Of a DNA stretch of 57,310 nucleotides, positions 52,434-57,310 are shown piece after piece. Each line of letters opens with the position of its first letter. Positions within the stretch are counted from its first letter, which is position 1. The DNA is taken from positions 1 to 57,310 of the forward strand of contig JAUYKA010000018.1 of NCBI GenBank assembly GCA_030698495.1. Reading direction: 5' to 3'. The notes under the pieces were generated by a model. That model saw nothing but the letters and a program-made list of their open reading frames with translations, ran no database searches and had not been told where the DNA came from. A program made the translations under genes and the position numbers. Source of the stretch: a bacterium (GTDB lineage Bacteria; Patescibacteriota; Andersenbacteria; UBA10190).

Positions 52434-53012
52434 CTACCATAAATCAGATTTTACCGTTCTACCCAATCTCTCATGCTTCCCTAAAGCTAACAGAGATTTA
52501 AGACTATAGGGTGCCCACTCCGCCAACACAAACAACACTCCCGTGTACGCCAAATTTCCCAGCAAGTTATACCGGAAAAAAGGAATCGCGTAATAATAAG
52601 ACAAAATCAAACCGTCACCCGTCAGCGGATAATAACCGCTAAACCGCCACACCGCTAAATTGGTCGCCAGGTAAAAAATTATCGAGCTGGCCAAAGACGC
52701 CCCTATAATCGGCAAAGCCCGACGTCGCTCGCGTAACCATGTGCCCAGCCAAACCGTCAACGCGAAAGACCCGTACACCGCCGCCATTGTCGGCCACTCA
52801 TAAAAACCAAGCAATAAATCAGAAGCAAACATAGCAATAAGCGGTACCAGCAATGCCCACGGGCGCTTAAGCAAAGCACCGGATAACAAAGCCACAGCCG
52901 CTATCGGCGCCACGTTAGGCACGTGCGGCACCAACCTTAAAATCATTGAACCGCCGACTAGAATCAGTATTAACCATGTCTCAACGGATAATAGCTTCTT
53001 GTTTATTGTCAT
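52434..53012 (-). CDS. Small polytopic membrane protein, ECF substrate-binding-component-like (DUF6580-type)
   Basis: RLVPHVPNVAPIAAVALLSGALLKRPWALLVPLIAMFASDLLLGFYEWPTMAAVYGSFALTVWLGTWL. Confidence 0.75.
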   Translation of the reverse strand: MTINKKLLSVETWLILILVGGSMILRLVPHVPNVAPIAAVALLSGALLKRPWALLVPLIAMFASDLLLGFYEWPTMAAVYGSFALTVWLGTWLRERRRALPIIGASLASSIIFYLATNLAVWRFSGYYPLTGDGLILSYYYAIPFFRYNLLGNLAYTGVLFVLAEWAPYSLKSLLALGKHERLGRTVKSDLW

Positions 53013-54967
53013 AATAATTTTGTTAATAATCGAGTAATACTAACACCGATACCTATGTTAGCCAAGCTGAATAGACCCACCGCGAACTGCTTATCTTTGG
53101 CATTTAAAGGCACAAATCCCGCCGGAGTACTTTCATCAATAACTTGCTCCGCCCTTTCTTGTTTTTGCGTTGCCTTGACTGGTAACTCCTTATCTTGACC
53201 TGATATTACGGCCGATTGAACAGATTCGTCGTTACTGACAACTCCCATTACCATTCCCGTCGGTGACGGACTGATACTTGACTGACCAATACTGGTAATA
53301 TTAATAGACTGCCCCGGCACGTACGTTAGCGCCTCGCTTCCTATCACCGCCGTCGCTATCTTCATTATCGGCCATGGACTTTGCTCAAGCGCCGTTGCCG
53401 CGTAAGCCGTCATTAGTGCCGAGCTATCATTCTGGCCGCGCCAGCCGAACGCTCCCGATTCATTTTGATAGCCGAGTAAAGCCGTCCAAGGATCACCCGC
53501 GGCCACACGCCAGGCGGCCGGATCTTCGCCCAACGATATAATCGCCTGAATAGCCCACGAGGTTGTCGCGCTGTTTCCCCCAAAGCCGCCCGAGTCATCT
53601 TGATGATTTTTTAGCCAACCGCGCGCCTTGTCTCTTGCGTTATGTATATCTATCCCCCCGCCATCCTTTTGGTAAGCCCCTAAAGCCTGCACCGCCGCCG
53701 CAGTCAAATCAATGTTATTAGTCCAGTCTCCACTCGCGCCTTGCGTTGCGATAAGATGCTCTATCGTTCGGTTCAAATTGGAGGAACTAGCGTTTTCTCC
53801 CGCCGCCAGCCAAGCCAGTACGCCAAAAATATCATCGTTGATCAATCCTTCTTCTCCGACTTGTCCGTCATGATAATACCCGTTAAGACGCTCAATCAAA
53901 TCATCGCCGTTAAAATTTCGCGGGTTGGCTCCGGAGGCTCTTACTGCCAAAATCAACCTCTCCACATCCGTGGCGCTATTTAAAGGAGTTTGGCCTAACG
54001 CCGCCAGCAGTGAATTACCCCCCTTGGTTATTTGCGCGCTTGATTGTTCATTCGCGCCCAATGCTACTGCCGCCCAGGCGCTTGTTATATAACCATCAAT
54101 CAACCCGTCAATATTTTGCTGTTGTTCCAAGTAGCGCAAGGCTTTGTCGGCCGCGTCTTGTCTGCTGTCTTCCGTCATCGACAGCACCGCCGCCGTCGGT
54201 GTTACTGTTGGCGTTGCCGTGGGTGTCATCGTCGGTGTCGACGCAATCAACGGCGTCGGAGTTACTATTGCAGCCACCAGCTGCAAAGGAGCGCTTCTGA
54301 TCAAACCGTCCCCTTCGGCTTGAACCAACAACGAATTATCTACCGCCAAACTTACCGTCACTCTGCCGTCATCCGGTACCGTTAGAATTTTCTCTCCCGC
54401 TCGCAATGTCTCTCCGCTAGCCGGCTCCCAATGCCCGTGCCATACCCAATTATCGTCCGTTTCCCCAATTCTTTTTTCAACCACAACAACAGTTTGCTCA
54501 TCTCCCGCTTCTGCCTCTGATGCCGTTATTCTTAGCGGCGCGTCGCCAAAAGCCGCCAACGCCAACAATAAATCGTCCCCATCTTTAATCTGATAATCAG
54601 CCACACCAACGTCCGCCGCGTCGTAATTGACCCAAAAACTCCAATATTTGGAATAATCATCCGGCGCCTTCTCACCGTCAATATCGGTGATAAACAAACC
54701 AAATCCGAAATCGGATACATTAAAACCAAACTGCTTTTCGTCATTAGCCACCGCCAAGGCGCAAGCCGCCACTTTTTCTAATTGATGTTCGTTGCCGGTG
54801 TTATCAACAATCACGCAATCATTGACGGCGACATCATGGTTGTAAATAGTATTCTTCTCTCCCTCAACACGAAGATGAACCGTTATTGTATTATCCGCGT
54901 TACTGACGCCAACCAACCCGCCTAAAGCCAGCCCCAGTACAAGCAACCAATAAAAAATATTTTTCAT
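53009..54967 (-). CDS. Membrane-anchored protein: N-terminal DUF4430/transcobalamin-beta-like domain + alpha/alpha-toroid repeats + C-terminal TM
   Basis: FGLFITDIDGEKAPDDYSKYWSFWVNYDAADVGVADYQIKDGDDLLL; ADKALRYLEQQQNIDGLIDGYITSAWAAVAL; SGDWTNNIDLTAAAVQAL; DSGGFGGNSATTSWAIQAIISLGE. Confidence 0.82.
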   Translation of the reverse strand: MKNIFYWLLVLGLALGGLVGVSNADNTITVHLRVEGEKNTIYNHDVAVNDCVIVDNTGNEHQLEKVAACALAVANDEKQFGFNVSDFGFGLFITDIDGEKAPDDYSKYWSFWVNYDAADVGVADYQIKDGDDLLLALAAFGDAPLRITASEAEAGDEQTVVVVEKRIGETDDNWVWHGHWEPASGETLRAGEKILTVPDDGRVTVSLAVDNSLLVQAEGDGLIRSAPLQLVAAIVTPTPLIASTPTMTPTATPTVTPTAAVLSMTEDSRQDAADKALRYLEQQQNIDGLIDGYITSAWAAVALGANEQSSAQITKGGNSLLAALGQTPLNSATDVERLILAVRASGANPRNFNGDDLIERLNGYYHDGQVGEEGLINDDIFGVLAWLAAGENASSSNLNRTIEHLIATQGASGDWTNNIDLTAAAVQALGAYQKDGGGIDIHNARDKARGWLKNHQDDSGGFGGNSATTSWAIQAIISLGEDPAAWRVAAGDPWTALLGYQNESGAFGWRGQNDSSALMTAYAATALEQSPWPIMKIATAVIGSEALTYVPGQSINITSIGQSSISPSPTGMVMGVVSNDESVQSAVISGQDKELPVKATQKQERAEQVIDESTPAGFVPLNAKDKQFAVGLFSLANIGIGVSITRLLTKLL

Positions 54968-54968
54968 A

Positions 54969-55535
54969 TTACTTAAGCTCCTTCTCGGCTTCGTATTTCC
55001 ACGTTACTCTGTCGCCCGGCGCCGCCATCGTTGTGGAAGCACCCGTCGGAGTCAAGCGGTCATTAACATACAACTGCCAATAAAGATTTTTCGCCGCGTC
55101 ATTGTCCGTGCCGTTTATGCTTTCCACAAACACACCCAGCGTACCCCCGTAATCTTTCGTTCTTAACTGTAAACCTTGGCTTTTCGCCTTTTCCAGTATT
55201 TGCGCCACATTTTCATTTTGACCAGCCGCAACTTCATAGACATCCGTGCTGCTAGGACCCGTAATTTCTAGGCTTACCGTTTGAGTATTCGCACTAACAT
55301 CTTGCTGACTGTTTTGCTCGCCCCTTACCGGCGTTAACGCCTTGTTAGCACTGTTTTCTACCGCTATCTCTCCCGACTCATCAGTGATTGTCTTTACCGC
55401 ATCTTCTTTTATATTAGGCAACCGGAATAAAACCGCCGCCAGCACCAACGCTAACGGTAATAACAACCCCAACGCGATCAACTCCGGCTTAATATTTTTT
55501 CTCCCCACCGCTTTCTCTGTTTTATCATCCTGCAT
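54969..55535 (-). CDS. TM-anchored DUF4430 (transcobalamin C-terminal-like) domain protein
   Basis: N-terminal TM; DYGGTLGVFVESINGTDNDAAKNLYWQLYVNDRLTPTGASTTMAAPGDRVTWKYE. Confidence 0.85.
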   Translation of the reverse strand: MQDDKTEKAVGRKNIKPELIALGLLLPLALVLAAVLFRLPNIKEDAVKTITDESGEIAVENSANKALTPVRGEQNSQQDVSANTQTVSLEITGPSSTDVYEVAAGQNENVAQILEKAKSQGLQLRTKDYGGTLGVFVESINGTDNDAAKNLYWQLYVNDRLTPTGASTTMAAPGDRVTWKYEAEKELK

Positions 55536-55575
55536 ATTTTTTATCTTTAAGGGTAATTCCCTCCCCCGCCGCCAT

Positions 55576-55598
55576 AAAAAAACTCTGCCTAAGCAGAG
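55576..55598 (-). terminator. Intrinsic terminator between riboswitch and first gene
   Basis: Minus strand CTCTGCTTAGGCAGAG followed by T7. Confidence 0.85.
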
Positions 55599-55624
55599 AA
55601 AAAATTGGACTAACCAATAAATTA

Positions 55625-55800
55625 CCTTCCTCCTGCTCGGGATCTAACATCACAAAGACGAAGGGTCGGACTTTCTTAAATCTCTGATAAAGAAATTTAA
55701 GATTACCGTTGCGGCACAGTGCGGGATTTACACCCGCTTCACTTGTCTTGCTTGCCGCGAAGCACTCGCGGCTTTTTTGATAAATGACAACCTGTATCAA
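55625..55800 (-). promoter_or_regulatory. Cobalamin riboswitch
   Basis: Minus strand GATACAGGTTGTC...AAGTGAAGCGGGTGTAAATCCCGCACTGTGCCGCAACGGTAATC...AAGTCCGACCCTTCGTC, matching the B12-box consensus GGTGnnAATCCnGCnCnGTnCCGCnACnGTnA. Confidence 0.88.
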
Positions 55801-55801
55801 C

Positions 55802-55831
55802 ACTATACGGTCGGCCATCAAGTCCAGTCAA
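55802..55831 (-). promoter_or_regulatory. Sigma70-type promoter of the riboswitch operon
   Basis: TTGACT (55831..55826) - 18 bp - TATAGT (55807..55802). Confidence 0.7.
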
Positions 55832-56075
55832 CGACAAACCCCGACACTTTTCCCCAGAATCTATCTTTTTTTAAACTTTGTTTCTTCTTATGATATACAT
55901 ATAGCATACCTCCGACCGGGAACTCTCCGGAAACGCCAATCATCCCGAGGCCAGGAGGTAGCCGCCAGGTAATATTGAATGGTTTCTTTGTGCCCCTGAC
56001 CACTCAATATGCAGCCCACTCGTCGTGGAATCTGCACTGGCGGTTTTTTCTTTTCGCCAAAATAATAGGTATGTA

Positions 56076-56834: not shown

Positions 56835-56895
56835 AGTAATAATAAATTATCTTACCTTAAGCATACTATTAAAAGATAAAATATAGGAATGTAAA

Positions 56896-56958
56896 AGCTC
56901 ACTCGACGTGCGTCTGAATTCGGGCTATCCAGACCCCCCATCACCCGCCGAGTGAGCT
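56896..56958. promoter_or_regulatory. Long hairpin (AGCTCACTCG ... CGAGTGAGCT)
   Basis: 10-bp perfect outer stem with inner GTCTG/CAGAC stem; T4 follows on minus strand. Confidence 0.6.
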
Positions 56959-57006
56959 AAGTCCAGTCTGCCTGCATGAAAGGACTTAGACTGGCCGCTT
57001 AAAATA

Positions 57007-57069
57007 TCAACAAGAACGTACAAATAGGCATCCATGCCTCTTGGGGAACACGTTCCCGCCGCAGGACAT
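57007..57069 (-). CDS. Possible 20-aa leader peptide MSCGGNVFPKRHGCLFVRSC with extended SD
   Basis: GGAGGTGATCC (57085..57075) 5 nt before ATG. Confidence 0.35.
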   Translation of the reverse strand: MSCGGNVFPKRHGCLFVRSC

Positions 57070-57310
57070 AAGTCGGATCACCTCCCTCCTACATAGGGGA
57101 AGGGAACGCGTCCGGGGAACATCCAGTGTTCATATCTTTATATAGCACGACGTTATGTAATGCAACCCGCAGTCTTGTCTAATACAAGACTGGCCTGAAC
57201 AACCCCTCGGTTTCTAACACAAAAGTGGCCTGAAGCCGAAACTAAAAAGCGTGTGCCGTAGCATAGGGATATATGACCATCACTATGAACAACACACGCG
57301 TTCTTACCAT

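Follow-up and report, generated by a model that had tools for sequence, protein, structure and literature searches.

Patescibacteria are thought to depend on other cells, and few of their nutrient routes have been defined. Which nutrient is served by the riboswitch-led operon of three genes found on the minus strand of contig JAUYKA010000018.1 (assembly GCA_030698495.1, Andersenbacteria), and how would that nutrient enter the cell? The window analyzed here is the whole 57,310-nucleotide stretch of this contig (C4), one of 37 contigs of a 1.16-Mb genome. Very probably the answer is vitamin B12: the operon is best read as a riboswitch-repressed corrinoid scavenging system of a B12-auxotrophic Patescibacterium, in which the DUF6580 membrane protein acts as a stand-alone permease. 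A cell-surface corrinoid scavenging system had already been proposed in a preliminary description made from the letters alone. The proposal gains support from the riboswitch, the kinship of the DUF4430 proteins to vertebrate carriers and of DUF6580 to CbrT, the S-component fold, the linkage to nrdJ, cobA and pduO among relatives, the presence of NrdJ and PduO and the absence of CobS. Read 5' to 3' on the minus strand, the operon (52434-55831) runs from the promoter through the aptamer leader and the terminator to the DUF4430, DUF4430+toroid and DUF6580 genes:

55831-55802, minus strand: sigma-70-like promoter TTGACT-N18-TATAGT, the best of the region by consensus match alone (10/12 matches, a degree frequently reached by chance)
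55643..55763, minus strand: cobalamin riboswitch aptamer of the adenosylcobalamin (AdoCbl) class, from RF01482 and RF00174 matches, our R1 model and covariation
55631..55641, minus strand: element CCCGAGCAGGA, 3' of the aptamer core, common to many relatives' riboswitches by sequence comparison
55598-55576, minus strand: intrinsic terminator CTCTGC-TTAG-GCAGAG-T7, read from the sequence, between the aptamer and gene 1; presumed expression platform
54969-55535, minus strand: gene 1, 188 amino acids, N-terminal transmembrane anchor and DUF4430 (transcobalamin beta-domain-like; PF14478, 50.4 bits), putative surface B12 binder
53009-54967, minus strand: gene 2, 652 amino acids, signal or anchor, DUF4430 (PF14478, 35.9 bits), linker, alpha6/alpha6 toroid and C-terminal transmembrane helix, putative two-domain B12 binder
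54560..54892, minus strand: DUF4430 domain of gene 2, residues ~26-136 (PF14478)
53363..54172, minus strand: alpha6/alpha6 toroid of gene 2, residues 266-535 (model and Foldseek), with an invariant NDD motif at 377-379
52434-53012, minus strand: gene 3, 192 amino acids, DUF6580 membrane protein (PF20221, 150.9 bits), putative stand-alone B12 permease with the S-component fold

Genes 1 and 2 are separated by a 1-nucleotide gap and genes 2 and 3 overlap by 4 nucleotides. The 188-residue protein has an N-terminal hydrophobic segment at residues 14-43, and the 652-residue protein has one at residues 1-24, to which its structural model adds a C-terminal helix at 623-651. The promoter, the terminator ahead of the genes, the three overlapping or abutting frames and the two membrane-anchored proteins, one with DUF4430 and the other with DUF4430 and a toroid, are thus present as the preliminary description had them.

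The DUF6580 membrane protein

The product of gene 3 was modelled by AlphaFold2 at a pLDDT (predicted local distance difference test) of 90.6, and the top 16 Foldseek matches of this model in the PDB were all S-components of energy-coupling factor (ECF) transporters, e.g. ThiT, FolT, RibU and PanT, with TM-scores of 0.37-0.57. A profile built from 74 DUF6580 sequences found a single PDB match even at E-values up to 10, which was chain A of 6FNP (E 2.8e-4, over the first half of the protein). We take this chain (182 amino acids, 'Membrane protein') to be CbrT, the B12-specific S-component, which was reportedly predicted in the 2009 study of Rodionov. The 6FNP entry is the ECF-CbrT complex of Lactobacillus delbrueckii (PMC5997447). 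DUF6580 queries gave zero matches in the plasmid collection, and no paper naming DUF6580 was found in the literature searched, which included few subscription journals.

The S-component fold and the specific kinship to CbrT, itself a partner of EcfAA'T, would also suit a true S-component whose ATP-driven uptake relies on an ECF module that went unrecognised or is supplied by the host. We consider this unlikely, because EcfT (PF02361) is absent from the genome itself and was found in only 1 of 146 genomes of same-phylum relatives, our survey set, whereas 10 of 14 control genomes were positive. The docking motif of S-components, AxxxA in the first transmembrane segment (TM1), points the same way, being present in 4/74 DUF6580 sequences with its alanines absent from 70/74. 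The protein had been called 'ECF-S-like' in the preliminary description, and the fold and the CbrT match agree with this name; however, since the genome lacks EcfT, the term must mean an S-component fold without a module and not a module-dependent component. Translocation is probably module-free because the genome has no ECF module.

Several positions of DUF6580 are nearly invariant, namely R26-x2-P29-H30-x2-N33, D65, N118, W122 and Y128. Judged from their conservation they are candidates for the binding pocket, with His30 (73/74 sequences, within the RxxPHxxN motif) perhaps as the cobalt ligand. Concerning cysteine, the window protein has zero, and no cysteine column exceeds 31/74 across the family.

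Cobalamin enzymes, gene linkage and the imported compound

An importer of cobalamin should have customers in the cell. NrdJ, the class II, AdoCbl-dependent ribonucleotide reductase (RNR), is encoded on contig C23 (TIGR02504, 637-639 bits against a cut-off of 399.95), the PduO adenosyltransferase on C8 (199.5 bits) and a B12-binding radical-SAM protein on C25. Where the preliminary description looked to the genome for B12-dependent enzymes and an ECF module, NrdJ and PduO are there but EcfT is not. CobA was not found in this genome, and CobS, of B12 synthesis and salvage, is absent from it and from the relatives (0/146). As CobA and CobS are both missing, a complete cobamide must be imported. 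A BtuC-type FecCD permease was considered and rejected, since the single match in the genome is ZnuB (ABC-3, 216.9 bits) beside ZnuA; there is therefore no BtuCDF. The operon is the sole B12 entry route found in this genome.

It could be argued that the operon imports cobalt, another corrinoid-related metal or a precursor such as cobinamide, and not complete cobamides. Cobalt transporters are also governed by cobalamin riboswitches in other bacteria (PMC2667541), 3u7z, a structure of the DUF4430 type, carries the annotation putative metal binding, and CbrT takes cobinamide as well. Yet the carrier-protein kinship points to cobalamin binders, and because CobS is absent from 146/146 genomes, the known route offers no way of turning cobalt or cobinamide into a finished cobamide. 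Cobalt uptake was rejected chiefly on this ground, and the reading as a whole is improbable.

Gene linkage argues for cobalamin as well. DUF6580 occurs in 39/146 relatives, DUF4430 in 40/146 and both in 36/146 (Fisher p 4e-26), and NrdJ correlates with DUF6580 (p 5e-4) and with DUF4430 (p 6e-5), all of these statistics being uncorrected for phylogeny. Stronger evidence comes from gene order. The DUF6580-DUF4430 neighbourhood to which attention had been drawn beforehand does recur, DUF4430 lying immediately upstream of DUF6580 in 27 of 35 relatives' loci. On the same strand within 5 kb, 21/35 loci have NrdJ and 20/35 the CobA/BtuR corrinoid adenosyltransferase, whose identity was checked (172-208 bits to PF02572), as was that of NrdR. 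The order nrdR-nrdJ-cobA-DUF4430-DUF6580 is recurrent, and the riboswitch stands directly upstream of the DUF4430 gene in 16 of the 19 genomes having both. It is this adjacency across many families, not the p-values, that carries the argument.

Two other observations were made in the survey. Eleven relatives without DUF4430 or DUF6580 (L034, L040, L050, L041, L044, L042, L053, L043, L047, L048 and L052) have a cobalamin riboswitch near position 1501, just behind nrdJ in three of them, before unrecognised open reading frames (ORFs) of ~280-505 amino acids, possibly reflecting another B12-related function in the candidate phyla radiation (CPR). Three to four nrdJ-like frames lie side by side on one contig in G044:C46, G024:C12 and G077:C39 (L092), perhaps through splitting or duplication of a class II RNR gene.

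An independent set came from a scan of 84,980 species' genomes with a tighter DUF6580 alignment alone, which yielded 80 loci, mostly in Patescibacteria and also in Bacteroidota, Ignavibacteria and Chlorobiota. An R1-type riboswitch model matched in 46/80 loci, 50 of the 51 matches being on the DUF6580 strand. The gene next after the riboswitch was DUF4430 or DUF6580 in 37/50 cases, and DUF4430 was the commonest (31/50). TonB-dependent receptors adjoin DUF6580 in L147, L158, L160, L162, L164, L183 and L187; the best NCBIfam match of the L160 receptor is TonB-B12, under its cut-off, and a BtuG-like lipoprotein in L164 matches 3DSM, which is among the structures related to BtuG (PMC6143338), and other YncE-type structures. 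The gene for MetH, the B12-dependent methionine synthase (1765 bits), directly follows DUF6580 in L162, from Chlorobiota, with CobA nearby. Since the partner changes in bacteria with an outer membrane, what is conserved is DUF6580, whereas the capture part differs according to the cell envelope.

At L162 (2532-12144) a single strand holds a riboswitch, genes for a surface lipoprotein and a TonB receptor, DUF6580, MetH and CobA; this compact B12 locus suggests that DUF6580 replaces BtuCDF outside the CPR. Three other loci (L130:5801-7288, L134:7157-8714 and L143:7009-8213) show a second riboswitch-model match downstream of the DUF6580/PduO genes, followed by ORFs of 375-458 amino acids without a Pfam match.

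Capture proteins and the riboswitch

The two DUF4430 proteins are the candidates for capture. A profile of the family (A6, 44 proteins) was searched against the PDB and matched haptocorrin best (5.7e-9), followed by intrinsic factor (1.3e-7) and transcobalamin-2 (8e-6 to 1e-4, profile range to 1.2e-4), the matches falling in the C-terminal beta domain of these vertebrate carriers. All confident PDB relatives of DUF4430 but one are B12 carriers. The toroid of the 652-residue protein was modelled as 12 helices, mostly at pLDDT >90; toroid families score below cut-off for this protein, whose DUF4430 domain is recognised at the bit score listed above. A Foldseek search with the toroid found squalene-hopene-type terpene cyclases (1e-6) and transcobalamin (3e-5) alike, so the toroid is compatible with B12 carriers but unspecific. 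The two domain types that the preliminary description had likened to those of intrinsic factor and transcobalamin are therefore both recognisable, with cyclases as equal matches for the second. DUF4430 precedes the toroid in the window, and the toroid precedes DUF4430, the vertebrate order, in L115, L123, L129 and L174, so that fusions occur in both orders among relatives.

Other arrangements of DUF4430 were seen. A small DUF4430-like ORF lies immediately ahead of DUF6580 in L129, L139, L145 and L155, and in some loci of the Magasanikbacteria type the DUF4430 proteins number two or three, a long toroid protein standing between two short ones. Multiple DUF4430 proteins per locus suggest a multi-protein capture complex. 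DUF4430 queries gave zero matches in the plasmid collection, and the same literature search found no paper linking DUF4430 to bacterial B12 uptake; DUF4430 and cobalamin were paired there for the vertebrate carriers and in a Lacticaseibacillus proteome.

The resemblance of the toroid to squalene-hopene cyclases, at least as good as that to transcobalamin, raises the alternative that B12 concerns DUF6580 alone and that the DUF4430/toroid proteins serve as adhesins or other structural surface proteins, or as terpene-cyclase-like enzymes. This is quite improbable given that DUF4430 is the commonest gene directly behind the riboswitch and accompanies DUF6580 in 36 genomes, that its confident structural relatives are, bar one, B12 carriers, and that the toroid is fused to it in both orders.

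Concerning the riboswitch, the leader matched RF01482 (AdoCbl) under relaxed thresholds with 36.2 bits (E 4.9e-5, 55655-55749 minus; gathering cut-off 50) and RF00174 with 26.2 bits (E 4.6e-5; gathering cut-off 31.5), the latter being the sole RF00174 match in the 1.16-Mb genome. A scan of the window at Rfam gathering level listed tRNAs only and not the riboswitch. The R1 covariance model built in this analysis gave 78.5 bits for the window leader, which is itself included in the model. Twenty-four sequences, from the window and its relatives, were aligned and show an invariant core; as the relatives were chosen with RF00174, the alignment is biased towards the RF00174 structure. P4 and P6 are intact in all 24 sequences; at four of their pairs both bases have changed in 5 to 16 sequences, and at three of the pairs in 12-16. 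The covariation score was 0.73 against 0.17 in shuffled and <=0.19 in slid alignments, with 93% of cells paired, and folding of the leader beats 200/200 shuffles (z -4.0). By these comparisons the cobalamin-class riboswitch is real though sub-threshold, and the preliminary description holds both in naming it and in expecting a match to the Rfam Cobalamin model. The position of the terminator suggests that control is by transcription attenuation. In spite of scores below the gathering cut-offs, a chance match in front of genes unrelated to B12 is hardly credible and was rejected on recurrence and covariation, since at E ~5e-5 the genome's sole match falls exactly in the operon leader, the same core with compensatory changes and unbroken P4 and P6 is found in 24 sequences, and the element is repeatedly placed before DUF4430 or DUF6580.

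Outside the operon, the window has two non-coding regions at 55900-56050 and 56880-57310 that flank a SIMPL gene; they contain GC-rich, structured-looking segments and have no Rfam gathering match.

Some of the evidence weighs against a corrinoid scavenging operon. The riboswitch stays under both Rfam cut-offs, and the Foldseek E-values of DUF6580 are weak (best 0.025, TM-score about 0.55), although the top matches are all S-components. The toroid resembles terpene cyclases at least as strongly as transcobalamin; the DUF4430 half of the 652-residue model has a pLDDT of about 40-70, and the two-domain cleft is not visible. The co-occurrence statistics ignore phylogeny, 25 of the 80 DUF6580 loci show neither a B12 gene nor a riboswitch in the flank examined, and the genome's own nrdJ and pduO lie on contigs other than that of the operon.

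Proposed route, known systems and meaning

The corrinoid scavenging operon that we favor would work as follows. At low intracellular AdoCbl the leader would be read through and the three genes expressed. One or two membrane-anchored surface proteins, with DUF4430 as the beta and the toroid as the alpha domain, would capture cobalamin and pass it to DUF6580, the small membrane protein with the S-component fold. DUF6580 could carry B12 inward alone, module-free, by analogy with what has been proposed for BtuM. The driving force for net uptake would be trapping, PduO turning cobalamin into AdoCbl, which would serve NrdJ and, when high, close the riboswitch in an OFF-type control.

The preliminary description knew of no characterised system with this layout. 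The logic of the layout, at any rate, is also followed by the nrdJ-cbrS-cbrT-pduO cluster of L. delbrueckii with its ECF-CbrT transporter (PMC5997447). Both bring together, in a B12 auxotroph, a class II RNR, an adenosyltransferase and a CbrT-type S-component. However, CbrT is powered by EcfAA'T, whereas the window genome is without EcfT and DUF6580 is without the TM1 AxxxA motif; DUF6580 is a Pfam family separate from CbrT; and the window operon is led by a riboswitch and has transcobalamin-like proteins. A second precedent is BtuM, a solitary S-component-like B12 transporter for which facilitated diffusion and metabolic trapping by an adenosyltransferase were proposed, and whose gene usually adjoins btuR (PMC6072759). 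DUF6580 shares with it the fold without an ECF module, and relatives have DUF6580 by cobA as btuM is by btuR. Yet, judged by sequence, DUF6580 is not BtuM: Cys80 of BtuMTd is an essential cobalt ligand (PMC6072759), whereas the window protein is cysteine-free and has the nearly invariant His30 instead.

On the capture side, vertebrate intrinsic factor, transcobalamin and haptocorrin have the same two domain types, a DUF4430-like beta domain and an alpha6/alpha6 toroid, but the window proteins are membrane-anchored, have the reversed domain order and an extra stand-alone beta-domain protein, and show very low identity to the carriers. The logic of surface capture is that of Bacteroides BtuG/BtuB, which are riboswitch-controlled and pass B12 to a transporter (PMC6143338), and DUF6580 adjoins BtuB/BtuG-type genes in Bacteroidota and Chlorobiota; the Bacteroides capture proteins themselves, a beta-propeller lipoprotein and an outer-membrane TonB receptor, are unrelated. 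What appears to be new here is a functional assignment for DUF6580, the operon logic being already known.

Beyond this operon we lean, with reserve, towards a wider view, in which DUF6580 would be a new widespread family of stand-alone cobalamin permeases, ranging from Patescibacteria to Bacteroidota and Chlorobiota and paired with exchangeable capture parts: anchored transcobalamin-like proteins in bacteria without an outer membrane and BtuB/BtuG in those with one. Cobalt would be held maybe by His30 and not by cysteine, and in the patescibacterial toroid-DUF4430 proteins the vertebrate carriers would have their prokaryotic counterparts.

For the Patescibacteria, the operon would name a specific nutrient route, that of vitamin B12, which is tied to deoxynucleotide synthesis and present in a quarter of the surveyed genomes. 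Two protein families without an assigned function, DUF6580 and DUF4430, receive from it one that can be tested. The operon also suggests that B12 can enter by way of a small permease without an ATPase module, and it would place relatives of the human B12 carriers on bacterial surfaces.

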